A DNA stretch of 64,000 nt. Source: Natranaerofaba carboxydovora (GTDB lineage: Bacteria > Bacillota > Natranaerobiia > Natranaerobiales > Natranaerofabaceae). The notes under the pieces are model-generated. The model did no database searches and had not been told where the DNA came from. It worked only from the letters and a program-made list of their open reading frames with translations. The first letter of the stretch is position 1. Each line of letters opens with the position of its first letter. This document shows positions 4,452 through 62,528 of the stretch, in pieces. A program made the translations under genes and the position numbers. Where the stretch lies: the NCBI RefSeq assembly GCF_022539405.1, contig NZ_CP054394.1, forward strand, positions 1,868,501 through 1,932,500, read 5' to 3'.

Positions 4452-5967
4452 TAAAATAAAACCTAAATCTCTATTTTCTAAATTAATAAGCAGCTATATG
4501 ATCATTATTTTTGTTACACTTCTAATTCTTGGCGGGATTATGTCTTATTTATTAGAGCAGCATTTTTATGGTGCAAGAGAATGGGAGATAAATTCGCAAG
4601 CTCAAAAAGCGGCTTCTATGCTCGAAGAACCCATAATTGAAAAAAATGCTTCAGAAATAATTGAAAAAACTGCTACTCTATCAAAATCATTTGAGTCTAA
4701 CATTAATGTGTATGATAGCAATGGCAATGTTATAACAAAGGCTAACTATATAGATGACACAGATAACGACGCAAGGGATAACGATGATAATGTAAACATC
4801 GAAAAAAATGAAAAAGAACACGTTTTAAAAGGTAATTCTTTCACCAAAAAAGTATTTGGACCTCAAGCAAAAAGACTTTTGGTTGCAATACCTATCACAG
4901 TAGAGAATGAATCAGTTCATGCAACTACAACTCAAATCGCTGCATCTGATGAAGATGAAATACTTGGCTTTGTAACCTTAAACGCTCCTTTGATTGGTTT
5001 TGAGGATACTTTAGCAAGTATTTTTAGAATAACTTTAATTTCGGGGGCAATAGCTGTATTTTTTGCTACAATATTTGCCTTTACAATCTCAAGAAATATC
5101 ACCAAGCCTTTAAAGCATATTAACGAGTCAGCCAAAAAATTAGCTTCAGGCAATTATAAACAAGTAGGAGAAGAAAACATCAAAGAAAACGAAGATGAAC
5201 TAAATAAAGTTTCAAAAACTTTCAATGTCGCTGCAAATCAAATAGATCAGACCATCAAAGAGCAAAAAAAGCTCGCAGTCTATCGAAAAAATCTAGTTGA
5301 TAACGCTTCGCATGAGTTTAGAGCACCTTTAAGTACAATCAGAGGATATTGCGAATTATTGATAGATGGTATTTTGCCAAGAGAAAAACAAAAAAAATAT
5401 ATCCAAATCATTATGAATAATACTTTGAATTTAAATAAGATGGTCGACGAGTTATTGGAACTATCCAATTTAGAAAGCGGCAGTATAAACCTTGAAAATG
5501 AAAAGTTAACACCAGAAAAAATAGCCAAGCAAAATCACGAAAATATATTACCTATGGCGGACGAAAAGTCACAGAATATTGAATTACAAATTTTAAATGA
5601 CAAAAATGATTTAGGTTACTTTCTAGGTGATGTAACAAGAGTAAATCAAATACTCTCTAATATATTAAAAAACGCTGTACAATTTACGCAGCCAGGAGGT
5701 AAAATAAAATTTAGCGTTGGGGCAGAAAACAATTTTGTTGTGTATACAATCGAAGACAATGGAAAAGGCATACCTGAAGAAGAAATGCAAAATATATTTC
5801 AAAGGTTTTACAAGTTAGATAAATCCAGGAATGACAATTCAACTACTGGTCTTGGGTTAGCTATCGTTAACGAACTTGTAAAAGCTCATGATGGAGATAT
5901 TAAAGTTGAAAGCAAAGTTGAAGAAGGTAGCATTTTTAAAGTTTATTTCCCAAGATACGAAAGTTAA
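4438..5967 (+). CDS. Sensor histidine kinase with HAMP
   Basis: A 509-residue membrane kinase. TM1 is at about 17-38, an extracytoplasmic sensor follows, and TM2 is at about 198-220. HAMP is next, then the dimerisation helix with phospho-acceptor His292 in NASHEFRAPL. The ATPase domain has the N box (NILKNAVQF), G1 (DNGKGIP) and G2 (TTGLGLAIV). The sensor has an unusually polar, Asp/Asn-rich stretch at about 104-125, which looks like a flexible or cation-binding insert. It overlaps the response regulator and is its likely partner. Terminator follows at 6011. Confidence 0.92.
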   Translation: MQIIDKIKPKSLFSKLISSYMIIIFVTLLILGGIMSYLLEQHFYGAREWEINSQAQKAASMLEEPIIEKNASEIIEKTATLSKSFESNINVYDSNGNVITKANYIDDTDNDARDNDDNVNIEKNEKEHVLKGNSFTKKVFGPQAKRLLVAIPITVENESVHATTTQIAASDEDEILGFVTLNAPLIGFEDTLASIFRITLISGAIAVFFATIFAFTISRNITKPLKHINESAKKLASGNYKQVGEENIKENEDELNKVSKTFNVAANQIDQTIKEQKKLAVYRKNLVDNASHEFRAPLSTIRGYCELLIDGILPREKQKKYIQIIMNNTLNLNKMVDELLELSNLESGSINLENEKLTPEKIAKQNHENILPMADEKSQNIELQILNDKNDLGYFLGDVTRVNQILSNILKNAVQFTQPGGKIKFSVGAENNFVVYTIEDNGKGIPEEEMQNIFQRFYKLDKSRNDNSTTGLGLAIVNELVKAHDGDIKVESKVEEGSIFKVYFPRYES

Positions 5968-6010
5968 AATACCATGGAAAAAAATTATTTAAGGTTATGT
6001 TGCTTTTGAG

Positions 6011-6050
6011 GGGCTATCCCAAAATTACTTTTGGGTATAGCCCTTTTTTG
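6011..6050 (+). terminator. Intrinsic terminator of the two-component operon
   Basis: GGGCTATCCCAAAA pairs with TTTTGGGTATAGCCC around a short TTAC loop with one bulge, then TTTTTT. Confidence 0.9.
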
Positions 6051-6107
6051 AGTGTAATTTTAAATACAATATAAATATTTCTTATATCCATAAAATTTAT
6101 TTATGTC

Positions 6108-6201
6108 TTAAGGGCCGCCCTTAAAACCCCATTAAAATGGTTTTTTTATGTTTTTTAAAATTGTTTACAAATTTGACACATTTAAAAATATATTTTAATA
6201 T
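6108..6201 (+). promoter_or_regulatory. Promoter region of the selenocytochrome gene
   Basis: TTGACA at 6173-6178 and TAATAT at 6196-6201 are exactly 17 bases apart. About 50 bases upstream lies a perfect inverted repeat TTAAGGG-CCG-CCCTTAA (6108-6124), a possible operator. A small CCATT/AATGG hairpin with a T run lies between them. The leader to the ATG at 6267 holds AGGAGGG. Confidence 0.55.
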
Positions 6202-6266
6202 TATTATAGATTAAAAAATACCCAATACTTGCCTGGGGTAATTAAAACATTTAGGAGGGATTATGT

Positions 6267-7163
6267 ATGTCAAGGCAACAGACCAGTTTATCTAGGAAAG
6301 GTTTTCTAAAAAGATCAGGCGCATCCTTACTTACTTTGTCAATGGCCGCAGGACTTGGCGGAGCAGCGTTAGCAGGCTGTGACAAAGACAAAATAGCAGA
6401 TGCACCTGATGGAATCGAAGTTCCAGATTGGCCTTATAATTATGTAAAGCTTGATCCAGAGGCTGCTGCACAAAGAGCTTATGATGGTTATCAAAGAAGA
6501 ATTCATGATGACCTAGGCGGATGAGGTATCGGAGCTGCCGAAGGGACCTTCGGCTTAATGGCGGAAGAGTTAGGAGATCCTTTTAACCTAATTCCACCAG
6601 AAATGTATGCACACTTTTCTGGTGGTATAGCTGGCTATGGCTCGCTCTGTGGCTGTCTTTCTGTAGCTGCATCAGCTATTGGCATGGTTTCAGACAGAGA
6701 AACTCAAGGGAAGTTAACTCAGGAGCTCTTTAAATGGTACAAGGATGAGGCTCATCCATGTTGGACTCCTGAAGGGGAAGAAGAATACCCTAGGGAAGTA
6801 GTAAATTCCATTTTATGTCATGTTTCTGTAACCAAATGGTTAAAACACGCTGCAGAAGAATTTGGAGAAAGAGTTGAGTTCAGTGGCGAAGAACGTGGTG
6901 AAAGATGTGCCAGGGTCACAGCGGCAACCTGCAAGAAAGCAATTGAGCTTTTAAATGCCGAGGCAGATGGTGTCTTTGAATCCGAACATAACTTAACTGA
7001 TGATGTAGAAGATTGTATGACCTGTCATGGCGATGAAGGTGATGCAACAGTTACTCACGGAAGCGACAGCTGCTTAGAGTGCCACAGTGATGTAGACATT
7101 AGCGATGATCATGGCGGACTAGACATAAATGAAATGAAAGATAAAATAGATCAAATAAAATAA
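6267..7163 (+). CDS. Predicted selenoprotein: split-Soret-like c-type cytochrome lipoprotein
   Basis: One frame from ATG 6267 to TAA 7163 contains a single in-frame TGA at 6522-6524 (codon 86 of 298). The sequence on both sides is one protein. The N-terminus is Tat-like (SRKGFLK, one Arg replaced by Lys) with lipobox LAGC. Around the TGA it reads HDDLGG-U-GIGAAEG, then NLIPPEMYAHFSGGIAGYGSL with CGC, as in split-Soret cytochromes and C_GCAxxG_C_C proteins, where I expect Cys at the TGA position. The C-terminus has two haem sites, CMTCH and CLECH. A hairpin that fits bacterial SECIS rules follows the TGA directly. Reading: an exported redox protein with haem and a selenol/thiol centre. Alternative: a nonsense-mutated gene. 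It is transcribed alone. Confidence 0.8.
6537..6554 (+). promoter_or_regulatory. Candidate bacterial SECIS hairpin
   Basis: GCCGAAG (6537-6543) pairs perfectly with CTTCGGC (6548-6554) around the loop GGAC. The loop starts 19 bases after the TGA at 6522-6524. Bacterial SECIS elements bound by SelB need an apical loop about 16-37 bases after the UGA with a G in the first two loop positions; both hold here. The stem is the most stable local structure in the gene and encodes part of the protein. Confidence 0.75.
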
Positions 7164-7204
7164 CTTTATAATTTTAAAATGGACAACCTAGTCAAGTGAT
7201 ATCG

Positions 7205-7236
7205 GGGAGGGTAGAATTATCTATCCTCCCTTTTAT
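7205..7236 (+). terminator. Intrinsic terminator of the selenocytochrome gene
   Basis: GGGAGGGTAGA (7205-7215) pairs with TCTATCCTCCC (7220-7230) with one mismatch, followed by TTTTATT. Confidence 0.85.
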
Positions 7237-14678: not shown

Positions 14679-15371
14679 TTATTCTAGCAAAACATCCTTT
14701 AATACACTTACTTGATCAGTGATATATTCTGGACCAACTGCCTCTAATTCATCTTTAGAGCCGTATCCATACAAAACCCCTACACTGTCAATTCCATTCT
14801 CCTTAGCTCCTATTATATCGTATTCTCTGTCCCCAATCATTATTTTTTTAGGGTCTATATTTTTACCAGCATTAGCACTACTAGTATTATATTCAATTGA
14901 ACTCAAAGCTGCATTTATAACTTCTGATTTTGCTATCCTTGTTCCATCTAAGTTGCTGCCAAATACACCTACAAAATACTCATCAATCCCAAAAAATTTA
15001 ATAATCTCTTTAGCAAAAACAGTCGGCTTTGAAGTTGCCACTATAAGTGTTTTATCTTTTTCTTTCAGAGAATTTAGTAATTCTTTTATACCTGGATAAA
15101 GCTTGTTTTCATACATTCCACGCTCAGAAAAATACTCCCTGTAATAATTCACAACATTGTATACTTCTTTTTCATCAAAAGAATAATAAACTTCAAAAGA
15201 CTCATATAACGAAGGGCCAATAAACTTTTCCAAATACTTATCATCATTTTCTTCTATGCCGTATTTTGACAGCGCATATTTTATCGAATTTATTATCCCT
15301 TCTTTGGGATCTGTCAGGGTACCATCTAAATCAAATAATATTATATCGTAGGTTTTATCCTCTTCTTTCAT
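14679..15371 (-). CDS. HAD-superfamily phosphatase (PGP/PpaX-like)
   Basis: About 230 residues. Motif I is DLDGTLTD, the cap domain has the PGP-type helical form, motif II is VATSKP, motif III includes KSEV and motif IV is MIGDREYDIIGAKENG. Such enzymes remove phosphate from phosphoglycolate, pyrophosphate or sugar phosphates. The start region carries two copies of GAGGTGAGCGA, each followed by an in-frame ATG (15392 and 15371); the second matches the usual N-terminus best. It starts 37 bases after the VanZ gene and is probably co-transcribed with it. Confidence 0.85.
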   Translation of the reverse strand: MKEEDKTYDIILFDLDGTLTDPKEGIINSIKYALSKYGIEENDDKYLEKFIGPSLYESFEVYYSFDEKEVYNVVNYYREYFSERGMYENKLYPGIKELLNSLKEKDKTLIVATSKPTVFAKEIIKFFGIDEYFVGVFGSNLDGTRIAKSEVINAALSSIEYNTSSANAGKNIDPKKIMIGDREYDIIGAKENGIDSVGVLYGYGSKDELEAVGPEYITDQVSVLKDVLLE

Positions 15372-15407
15372 TATGTCGCTCACCTCTTTCATATCGCTCA
15401 CCTCTGT

Positions 15408-15956
15408 TCACTCACTTCTAATTCCAAAGATTTTACTTATAATTAGGCCGCTAATAACACCAAAAAAAACTCCTAAGCTGTTAAGCATAACATCATCAAT
15501 ATTGGTTTGTCTCAAAGGGTGAAAAAGCTGTATTAATTCAATAGTTGTAGAAAGCCCGATCCCTATAAATACTACCCAGATAACAGATAACTTCCCTAGA
15601 AAGCGCAAAGTCATAAAAAAGGTAAGAGGCATAAACAAAACAATATTACCCCCTACCATCCTCAATATAGTTTCTCTTGTTGAGAATCGAAACATCTCTA
15701 AAATATTTTCAAAAGGAACCAAGTTAACCGACATATATACGGGCTCTAACATCAAACCTCGTATTGGAGATAGTGTTAGTAAAATCACTGCTATTAAAGA
15801 TGTGATAATCAATATCTCTAAAATAAAATTTGTCAGGCTAAATGAAAACCGCCCTCTAATAAAATATTTTAAAGCCAAAATTCCACTGTATATTAAAGCA
15901 GCCGCGCAGGCTATTACAAGGAAACTTACAGCATCTATGCCAAATCCAATATACAT
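15408..15956 (-). CDS. VanZ-family membrane protein
   Basis: A 182-residue integral membrane protein with about five helices. The VanZ signature is present: NLVPFENI before helix 3, then GNIVLFMPLTFFM, and TIELIQLFHPLRQTNIDDVMLNSLG. VanZ gives low-level teicoplanin resistance in enterococci, but most chromosomal homologues have no known function. ATG after AAGGAGC. It lies between Tex and the HAD phosphatase on the same strand with short gaps, consistent with one operon. Confidence 0.9.
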   Translation of the reverse strand: MYIGFGIDAVSFLVIACAAALIYSGILALKYFIRGRFSFSLTNFILEILIITSLIAVILLTLSPIRGLMLEPVYMSVNLVPFENILEMFRFSTRETILRMVGGNIVLFMPLTFFMTLRFLGKLSVIWVVFIGIGLSTTIELIQLFHPLRQTNIDDVMLNSLGVFFGVISGLIISKIFGIRSE

Positions 15957-15975
15957 TTTTAAAATAAGCTCCTTC

Positions 15976-18159
15976 CTAAACTTTTCTTAGGCCAATCCTT
16001 CCTCGTTCTTTGTCTATATCAATGATTTCAACTCGCACAATATTACCCACGGACACCACTTCAAATGGATGTGCTATATATTTATCGCTCAAGTTGGAAA
16101 TGTGAATTAAGCCATCTTCCTTTATACCAAGATCCACAAAAGCACCAAAATCTACAACGTTCTTTATCTCACCTTCTAGCACCATACCTTCTTTTAGATC
16201 TTCAATCTTTAGAATATCTTTTTTTAATCTGGGCTTATCAAATTTATCCCTCGGATCAAAGTGCGGCTTTTTAAACGCACTTAATATATCTTTTAGCGTA
16301 AAATAATCTGTTTCTAGTTTATCTGCTAATTCTTCAATCTTTGCCTGGTCATTTTCCAGGGTAGTGATTTTTTCTATAAGCTCACTAGAACCTATATTTT
16401 CTGCTTTTTCTTGCATGATATCTAACAGTTCAGTCGCTAGATGATAAGACTCCGGATGAATCGCTGTTTTATCCAACGAGTTTTCACCATTTAATATTCT
16501 TAAAAAACCTGCACACTGCTCAAATGTTTTGTCACCTAGCCCTTTTACTTGTTTTAATACTTTTCTAGAGTCAAACCCCTGTAATTCAGTTCTTTTTTCA
16601 ACTATATTTTCTGCACTTTTTTTATTTAGACCAGAAATATTTTTTAGCAGGTGAACCGAAGCTGTATTAACATCTACACCTACCTGGTTAACTACTTTTT
16701 CTACTACAAAAGAAAGGGTCTCTTCTAACTTTTTCTTTGAGACATCATGCTGATACTGTCCCACTCCAATAGAGCCTGGATCTATTTTTACTAATTCTGC
16801 TAGAGGGTCCAAAACCCTTCTTGCAATAGAGATAGCACTTCTTTCCTGAACATCTAATTCCGGGAACTCTTCACTGGCAAGTTTTGAGGCAGAATATACA
16901 CTTGCACCGTCTTCACTTACAATTGCATACTGAACATCCTCGTCCCCGGTTTCTTTTGTATATGAAGATATTGCCCCTACTACAAACTCTTCTGTTTCCC
17001 TAGAAGCAGTACCATTACCTATCGCTATAATCTTGACATTATAATTTTTAATTAAATCTAATACTTTCTTTTCTGCTTCTTTGACTTTGCTGTGAGGTTT
17101 AGTTGGGTAGATAACATCAACTTCTTTAACATCCCCGGTACTATCTATAACAGCCAACTTACACCCGGTTTTGTATGCAGGGTCTACCCCCATAATAACC
17201 TTACCCTTGATAGGAGGTTTCATTAAGAGATTTTCAAGATTTTTGGAAAATATATTTATCGCCCGTCCTTCTGCTTCTTCAAGCTTGTATGTTTTTAATT
17301 CTCGCTCAATCGAAGGTACAATTAATCTTTTGACACTGTCAGCCACGGCCTCTTCTATAACTTGTCTTGAGTACCCTTCAATACCTTTTGTTTCTCTTGT
17401 TGACAATCTGTCAATAACTTTTTGTTCGGGCGAAGAGTATTTGACTTTTAGAACCCCTTCTTTTTCACCCCTATTAATCGCCATAATTCTATGGGAAGGA
17501 AGTTTTATTAGCTTATCACCAAATTCATAATAATCCTTATAAACACCTTTTTTGTCTTTTTCTTTGTCTTTTAACTCTACATTAATTTTGGTTAGATTCT
17601 CACAAATATCTTTTGTTTCTTTTCTGTTTTCACTTTTTTGGGCTATTTTTTCTGCAATAATATCATTTGCCCCTTGGAGGGCTTCTTCGTAGGATGTTAC
17701 ACCTTTTTCTTCCTCCAAAAATCTTTCGCTCTCTTTTTGTGCTTCATTTTCAGTAGTTATTTCACCTTTTAAGAAAATATCTGCCAGAGGGCTAAGGCCT
17801 TTTTCCTCTGCTTTCATTCCCCGGGTCTTTTTCTTTTGTTTGTATGGCTTGTATAACTCTTCTAGCTCGTGCTGGGTGTTTGACAGATTGACAGCTCTCT
17901 CAAGTTCAGGAGTTAGCTTTTCTCTATTTTTCAGGGTTTCGATTATTTCTTTTTTCCTTGTCTCAAGATTATTAATGTATTCCCATCTTTCTATTATATT
18001 TCTAATATCATCTTCTGACATATTTCCTGTTTCATTTTTTCTATACCTTGCCACAAATGGTATCGTATTGCCGTCTTCTTTTATTAGTTTAACTACTTTA
18101 TTTACTTTATCTTTTTTTAGGTCCTGTTCTTTTGAGACCTGTTCTACTATATCTACCAC
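15976..18159 (-). CDS. tex: Tex-family RNA-binding transcription accessory protein
   Basis: About 727 residues, the normal Tex length. From the N-terminus: Tex-like helix-turn-helix region (IPFVARYRKNETGNMSEDDI at about 34-53), the YqgF/RNase H-like domain (VIMGVDPAYKTGCKLAVID), helix-hairpin-helix repeats (VNTASVHLLKNISGLNKKSA) and a C-terminal S1 RNA-binding domain (GEIKNVVDFGAFVDLGIKEDG). The GTG at 18159 lies after AAGGTGG and gives the canonical start VDIVEQVSKEQ; longer frames run into the yhaM gene. Tex binds nucleic acid and affects transcription and sporulation or virulence traits in other Bacillota. It lies directly downstream of yhaM. Confidence 0.95.
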   Translation of the reverse strand: MVDIVEQVSKEQDLKKDKVNKVVKLIKEDGNTIPFVARYRKNETGNMSEDDIRNIIERWEYINNLETRKKEIIETLKNREKLTPELERAVNLSNTQHELEELYKPYKQKKKTRGMKAEEKGLSPLADIFLKGEITTENEAQKESERFLEEEKGVTSYEEALQGANDIIAEKIAQKSENRKETKDICENLTKINVELKDKEKDKKGVYKDYYEFGDKLIKLPSHRIMAINRGEKEGVLKVKYSSPEQKVIDRLSTRETKGIEGYSRQVIEEAVADSVKRLIVPSIERELKTYKLEEAEGRAINIFSKNLENLLMKPPIKGKVIMGVDPAYKTGCKLAVIDSTGDVKEVDVIYPTKPHSKVKEAEKKVLDLIKNYNVKIIAIGNGTASRETEEFVVGAISSYTKETGDEDVQYAIVSEDGASVYSASKLASEEFPELDVQERSAISIARRVLDPLAELVKIDPGSIGVGQYQHDVSKKKLEETLSFVVEKVVNQVGVDVNTASVHLLKNISGLNKKSAENIVEKRTELQGFDSRKVLKQVKGLGDKTFEQCAGFLRILNGENSLDKTAIHPESYHLATELLDIMQEKAENIGSSELIEKITTLENDQAKIEELADKLETDYFTLKDILSAFKKPHFDPRDKFDKPRLKKDILKIEDLKEGMVLEGEIKNVVDFGAFVDLGIKEDGLIHISNLSDKYIAHPFEVVSVGNIVRVEIIDIDKERGRIGLRKV

Positions 18160-61965: not shown

Positions 61966-62289
61966 AACTCTAGTGTATATGTTTTTTATTTGTGCTGCAA
62001 CGATAATTTATAAAAAAATGGGCTTTCATCCCACGATTTAAAACCGTGGGCTTTTCGCCCTTGTACTGTAATAATGGATATAGGGAGTTTTCGTATATGG
62101 GATATTAATTCCGGCAAGTGATATCCCAAAAAAATTACTACAGCTAATAGAAAAGTACTTTTTACGTTTTATTTTTTTACTACATATTTAGCAATTTTAA
62201 AGCAGGAATAAAGTGAATAAGCTAGAATTATTTATAAACACATAAATTTTTTAATCCTTTTAGGTCTTTTATAAATTTAATATCGAAGA

Positions 62290-62447
62290 GTTAGGTGCCT
62301 TTATTAATAAGGTTAAAAGGGAATCAGGTGAGAATCCTGAGCGGTCCCGCCACTGTAAGGGTAAGGTTATTTTCAGTATGCCACTGGAGTATCACTCTGG
62401 GAAGGCCGAATCTAACCAATGATCCCAAGCCAGGAGACCTGCCTAAC
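62290..62447 (+). ncRNA. Cobalamin riboswitch aptamer
   Basis: All hallmark blocks are present in order: a 5' strand AGGTGCC, GGGAATCAGGTGAGAATCCT, GCGGTCCCGCCACTGTAA, a variable region with CACTCTGGGAAGGCCGA, and the B12 box AAGCCAGGAGACCTGCC at 62427-62443. Adenosylcobalamin or a related cobamide should bind. It is read rightward. A terminator follows at 62529. Confidence 0.95.
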
Positions 62448-62528
62448 TAGCGTTCACCGCAGAACTACGAAGGATGGGGAGGTGACTATATTCTATTTTA
62501 CTTGCTATATTATAAAATAGATAATACT

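Follow-up and report, generated by a model that had tools for sequence, protein, structure and literature searches.

For the protein described here we found a single relative with a solved structure, the split-Soret cytochrome c of Desulfovibrio desulfuricans ATCC 27774 (PDB 1h21), and the title of that entry reports a novel iron centre. Mutants in the split-Soret genes of D. alaskensis have no fitness phenotype (PMC4215793). Selenocysteine (Sec) has previously been predicted in proteins of the C-GCAxxG-C-C type, forms 1 and 2, and in two sorts of cytochrome, namely ExtKL-type multiheme cytochromes (NF040886) and octaheme cytochromes of the tetrathionate-reductase family (TIGR04315) (PMC13188914). 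A split-Soret entry is absent from both published selenoprotein review tables, and a full-text literature search for split-Soret proteins with selenocysteine, with most subscription journals outside its coverage, found nothing; TIGR01909 is named a '(seleno)protein' by NCBI, so that some members may already be annotated. A preliminary description of this DNA had suggested that Sec directly in an exported diheme lipoprotein would be a new kind of redox centre. The Sec form of the split-Soret family is missing from the published lists, but both C-GCAxxG-C-C selenoproteins and Sec-containing multiheme cytochromes had already been predicted.

The window, by which we mean the whole stretch of 64,000 nucleotides analysed here, contains a rightwards-reading frame of 298 codons that is open from its ATG to its TAA apart from one TGA (Table 1). 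It is the only long frame in the window in which a single internal TGA is followed by a SECIS-like hairpin; the other long frame with a single TGA (14682-15986, reverse strand) covers two neighbouring genes and is without a hairpin. With a two-component system on one side and a YgjP-like gene on the other (ORFs read by eye), the Sec gene stands by itself and looks monocistronic. Elsewhere in the window there is a cobalamin riboswitch (62276-62460, forward strand, 135 bits), and upstream of the window (L110, 632-3682) an aldehyde:ferredoxin-oxidoreductase-like gene is followed by a radical-SAM-like gene, both assigned by eye.

Table 1. Features of the predicted split-Soret selenoprotein gene, in coordinates of the window.
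Feature	Position	Strand	Basis
Promoter-like TTGACA-17-TAATAT	6173..6201	+	Consensus scan only
Shine-Dalgarno-like AGGAGGG, 7 nt 5' of ATG	6253..6259	+	Read in sequence
Coding sequence, predicted Sec-containing split-Soret cytochrome c, 298 residues, Sec at 86; ATG at 6267, TAA (7161-7163) included	6267..7163	+	Frame open if TGA is Sec; 1h21 homology on both sides of TGA; relatives
Lipobox LAGC, residues 35-38, closing Tat-like signal sequence (SRKGFLK)	6369..6380	+	Translation; RR-type motif in relatives; tatC in genome
Predicted Sec codon TGA, residue 86	6522..6524	+	Cys (66) or TGA (23) in 89 homologues; Cys or TGA in second collection
SECIS-like hairpin, 7-bp stem: GCCGAAG (6537-6543), apical loop GGAC (6544-6547), CTTCGGC (6548-6554)	6537..6554	+	Fits bSECIS model; covarying stem; present in TGA members, rare in Cys members
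Cys128, invariant, GCAxxG-type Cys	6648..6650	+	Alignments of relatives
Cys184-His185, invariant Cys then inferred axial heme ligand	6816..6821	+	His185 pattern in heme-bearing vs heme-less members
Cys214, invariant	6906..6908	+	Alignments of relatives
Heme-binding motif 1, CMTCH, residues 250-254	7014..7028	+	Translation, alignments
Heme-binding motif 2, CLECH, residues 269-273	7071..7085	+	Translation, alignments
His282, inferred second distal axial heme ligand	7110..7112	+	H in 97% of diheme members, missing from heme-less
Terminator-like intrinsic hairpin with T tail	7204..7231	+	Sequence scan

When 398 genomes of the phylum were searched with a profile, extraction gave 89 sequences that cover the TGA column, and in these homologues, all from one phylum, the column holds Cys (66) or TGA (23) and no other codon. 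A separate named collection supplies nine further TGA members, of which one is apparently the L077 locus already counted and eight are distinct, and the other 70 members of that collection carry Cys. The named TGA members come from Dethiobacter, Syntrophomonadaceae, Clostridiales, Tissierella and Clostridiaceae JG1575 (two copies), as well as from two Desulfobacterota, Desulfonatronospira and Desulfonatronovibrio; several of these genera we take to be haloalkaliphiles. A second Sec copy lies in the window's own genome (L020/L109, G000:C1:2836000-2848000, Sec gene at 5632-6468), where it has the same TGA and hairpin and a probable TTG start. Were this TGA a true stop, a nonsense mutation or a sequencing error, the locus would be reduced to a fragment of 85 residues and, from 6558, a separate ORF of 201 residues, just as standard gene callers would divide it. 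This is scarcely credible given that TGA occupies exactly this column in 31 distinct homologues, that homology to 1h21 continues across the site, and that the paralogue repeats the arrangement of TGA and hairpin; the presence of those 31 members in two collections excludes sequencing error.

The stem of the hairpin begins 12 nt past the TGA, and its loop lies 19 nt past it. The bSECIS model has a stem of 4-16 bp and a loop of 3-9 nt whose first two positions include G, placed 16-37 nt after the UGA and folding at -7.5 kcal/mol or below (PMC13188914), and the window hairpin agrees with it in its 7 perfect base pairs, its GGAC loop, its 19-nt distance and its energy of -10.4 kcal/mol. Only eight of the 2239 TGA triplets on the two strands of the window are followed, at SECIS distance, by a G-loop hairpin that is as stable or more so. 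Taken by itself, the hairpin has weak folding z-scores (-0.3 to -1.0), too weak to serve as proof of a SECIS element, and a comparison of Sec and Cys members was used instead; the significance of the element comes from these comparative data and not from lone z-scores. A stem of 5 bp or more, with G among the first two bases of its loop, lies 18-32 nt past the codon in every one of the 23 TGA members, and the hairpin reaches -7.5 kcal/mol or below in 22 of the 23 as against one of the 66 Cys members (Mann-Whitney p ~2e-14 for Sec versus Cys members' hairpins, a guide only, as related sequences are non-independent). In an alignment of 13 sequences from the window's clade, 95.6% of the stem cells are paired, two of the seven base pairs change on both sides, and neither any of 500 shuffles nor any slid alignment matches the observed covariation score. 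Where the window has GAA..TTC, for instance, G002 has GAG..CTC, a change of Phe to Leu joined by a synonymous change that restores the pair. Hairpins of the main clade have the stem at +13 and loops of the GGAC, GGGU or GUCU type, those of the G012/G096 group have a GUU loop, and that of G026/G106 lies at +26 with an AGUU loop.

The preliminary description had described the frame as open except for the TGA, the TGA as standing at the first conserved Cys of the family, and the hairpin as one of 7 bp with a GGAC loop at 12 and 19 nt; translation bears out the frame, the TGA faces Cys in 1h21 and in the homologues, and the hairpin was found again at the same coordinates and distances. It had also proposed inspecting homologues at the column of residue 86, where we find Cys or TGA and nothing else, and searching the genome for selA, selB, selD and tRNA-Sec, all four of which are present in the assembly, a single contig of 3.26 Mb. 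The tRNA-Sec has a UCA anticodon and was found by both ARAGORN and Rfam (70 bits, above the Rfam cut-off). The selD gene of the same genome (L036, 1480-2541) has an in-frame TGA of its own (KAGUAAK), followed by an 8-bp SECIS-like hairpin with a G-rich loop (-9.0 kcal/mol), and its product is itself a predicted selenoprotein, a positive control within the same genome. In the phylum, 18 genomes have TGA members, and selA scores above the cut-off in 17 of them; no selA was found in the remaining one, G167, which is fragmented and 90% complete. A Cys-charged tRNA(UCA) that read the TGA as Cys would supply a residue tolerated at this column, since relatives have Cys there, but the UCA tRNA is a canonical tRNA-Sec by both programs, the selA/selB/selD set is complete, and SECIS-like hairpins are conserved almost only alongside TGA, all of which make this reading very improbable. 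Sec insertion at UGA 6522 is, in our judgement, almost certain, and we infer that SelB and charged tRNA-Sec would decode the codon with the aid of the hairpin.

A quick tree of 85 sequences has five changes between Sec and Cys labels, at least three of them forced by starred branches, compared with a mean of 19.5 when labels are shuffled on the same tree. The hairpins differ by clade, which fits separate acquisitions of Sec, and the tree would need the Cys/Sec switch to have happened several times among the relatives, about five in all. A search of a phage collection gave zero matches. Unusual arrangements occur at three other loci. In Clostridiaceae bacterium JG1575 (L142, 2001-3230) one stretch holds two Sec domains, tandem or fused, each with its own SECIS-like hairpin; L078 (G210:C64, 736-4984) has at least four Cys-type family members in tandem with 0-1 CxxCH apiece; and the Sec member L029 (G026:C27, 1444-1902) is broken by a TAA that precedes the Sec codon and is cut off by the contig end, being either a pseudogene or an assembly error.

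The window protein scores 42 bits against PF09719 (C_GCAxxG_C_C), above the Pfam gathering cut-off of 27, but falls below the curated cut-offs of the NCBIfam equivalog NF047622 for the Desulfovibrio-type split-Soret cytochrome c (170.3 bits against 400) and of TIGR01909 for a C_GCAxxG_C_C subfamily (23.1 against 47.4). By these scores it is a homologue of NF047622 and not an equivalog member. Its alignment to 1h21 (E 1.2e-33) runs through the TGA site, and an AlphaFold2 model (mean pLDDT 85.9), for which 69 window and locus sequences were used, matches the same structure with a Foldseek E of 3.5e-14 and a Z of 27.1 over 219 residues. The next chain after 1h21 has a Z of 6. A weak structural likeness of the model to 2-methylcitrate dehydratase (Z 6) was judged to reflect a common helical arrangement. 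The family call made previously (split-Soret / C_GCAxxG_C_C) is thus upheld by PF09719 and by the sequence and fold of 1h21; we have little doubt about the split-Soret fold with bis-His hemes, and its combination with Sec insertion is very likely.

In a 69-sequence alignment that includes heme-less members, Cys or Sec is invariant at residues 86, 128, 184 and 214, and because all four are kept even where hemes are missing this Cys4 site is the core of the family; Sec86 lies in the Cys4 domain and not in a heme motif. His185 is H in all 73 heme-bearing members, whereas of the 13 heme-less members aligned 12 have another residue there, so that His185 is probably a heme ligand, and with it one Cys of the Cys4 site would adjoin a heme. 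His185 and His282 are the likely distal ligands. The Tat-type motif of the window protein has RK in place of the RR found in many relatives (SRR/TRR); tatC is present in the genome and also lies beside eight homologues of the window's clade, and the genome has a ResB-type heme-attachment system. We predict that the product is a diheme c-type cytochrome of the split-Soret family, exported and anchored in the membrane, in which Sec replaces the first family Cys, the chain consisting of a helical domain with the four Cys/Sec residues and a C-terminal segment with the two bis-His hemes. It would probably be exported folded by Tat, with hemes attached outside by the ResB-type system.

Homology and the title of 1h21 suggest that Sec86 and the three Cys may bind the iron centre that has been described in D. 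desulfuricans, and we give Sec86 an even chance of being a ligand of a metal centre; Sec as an iron-sulfur ligand is plausible. Cys184 and His185, being neighbours, could then carry electrons between the iron site and the hemes. The phrase 'new kind of redox centre', applied to the site in the preliminary description, is unproven. Alternatively Sec86 could be a catalytic selenol that reduces peroxide, disulfide, polysulfide or metal(loid)s, with the hemes giving electrons and the other Cys acting as the resolving pair. Sec is catalytic in most known selenoproteins, repeated exchange of Cys and Sec at one column is typical of redox-active sites, and all four Cys/Sec are kept in heme-less Sec members; on the other side, a CxxU/UxxC motif is absent, the four Cys are invariant as a set in the manner of a metal site, and the structure of the Cys homologue bears a title that reports an iron centre. 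Such a catalytic role is a serious contender, if somewhat short of even.

Many relatives have YeeE/YedE-TusA sulfur-uptake genes as neighbours. The paralogue L109 sits 0.4 kb past a YeeE/YedE (PF04143) gene; genes for TusA and LysR lie upstream, and ThiI- and IscS-like genes downstream. Of the 41 homologue regions, 17 have a YeeE/YedE gene within ~6 kb. Such genes accompany Sec and Cys members alike (nine of 21 and eight of 20 regions respectively, the window and paralogue included), and an association special to the Sec form was therefore rejected. Whole genomes have 0-7 PF04143 matches, and the linkage rate is far above that predicted from gene numbers. The window copy itself is without YeeE or TusA neighbours, and the link comes from the paralogue and other members. 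Four YeeE/YedE-type matches have an in-frame TGA (G148:C16:19712-20236, G058:C16:16502-17047, G130:C28:74300-74803 and G186:C1:358284-358778), reflecting either Sec or mere gene boundaries. YeeE imports thiosulfate with a TusA-like partner (PMC11582611), and YedE has been tied to selenium use (PMC5322559).

These neighbours suggest that the cytochrome might serve as an extracytoplasmic redox partner for uptake of sulfur or selenium compounds by YeeE/YedE and TusA. Coupling of the split-Soret protein to sulfur-compound uptake is a reasonable possibility, which we hold tentatively. A general role in anaerobic respiration, with nitrate-, metal- or polysulfide-linked electron transfer and with shared regulation as the only meaning of YeeE/YedE-TusA proximity, is likewise quite conceivable, if not favoured: expression of D. 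desulfuricans ssc is reportedly raised with nitrate (PMC5701242), and in P. delaneyi a diheme split-Soret protein is associated with a formate dehydrogenase cytochrome b subunit (PMC8105010), but the YeeE/YedE linkage recurs in several genome families at its elevated rate, among Sec and Cys members. The complete scheme, in which a Sec86 selenolate would ligate an iron centre wired to a heme through Cys184-His185, and this Se-tuned centre would power the redox conversion of sulfur or selenium compounds taken up by YeeE/YedE-TusA, with several independent switches from Cys to Sec, is speculative and on balance rather unlikely to hold in every part.

If the assignment is true, a structurally characterised cytochrome family joins the selenoproteome, with Sec at one of four residues resembling those of an iron centre, and split-Soret proteins are now tied to sulfur/selenium uptake genes. 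Since Cys and Sec versions alternate in the family and 1h21 offers a template, the effect of selenium on a heme-adjacent metal centre is directly testable, and the repeated switch to Sec among relatives makes the gene suited to asking how a redox protein that binds metal gains from selenium. Standard-code gene callers cut such Sec genes into two ORFs, so that members are easily missed.

Several described systems resemble this one in part. The predicted Sec-containing (2Fe-2S)-binding CopZ-like proteins (PMC13188914) have Sec in a presumed iron-sulfur protein, as the window protein may, but are listed under another domain (cd10141) with no heme mentioned. The ExtKL-type and octaheme tetrathionate-reductase-family cytochromes likewise place Sec in a c-type cytochrome, but they are listed under other families. 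The predicted C-GCAxxG-C-C selenoproteins (PF09719) have the same sort of Cys-to-Sec replacement, and the window protein differs from them in its two c-type hemes and axial His. The heme-less TGA members L011, L080, L081, L082, L083, L114 and L142, which retain the family's Cys/Sec site but have neither CxxCH motif and, where aligned, no His185 either, probably belong to one of the listed C-GCAxxG-C-C forms. The protein of 1h21 shares with the window protein the fold, 34-36% identity, all four family Cys positions and two C-terminal CxxCH motifs, and differs in having Cys where the window protein has Sec86.
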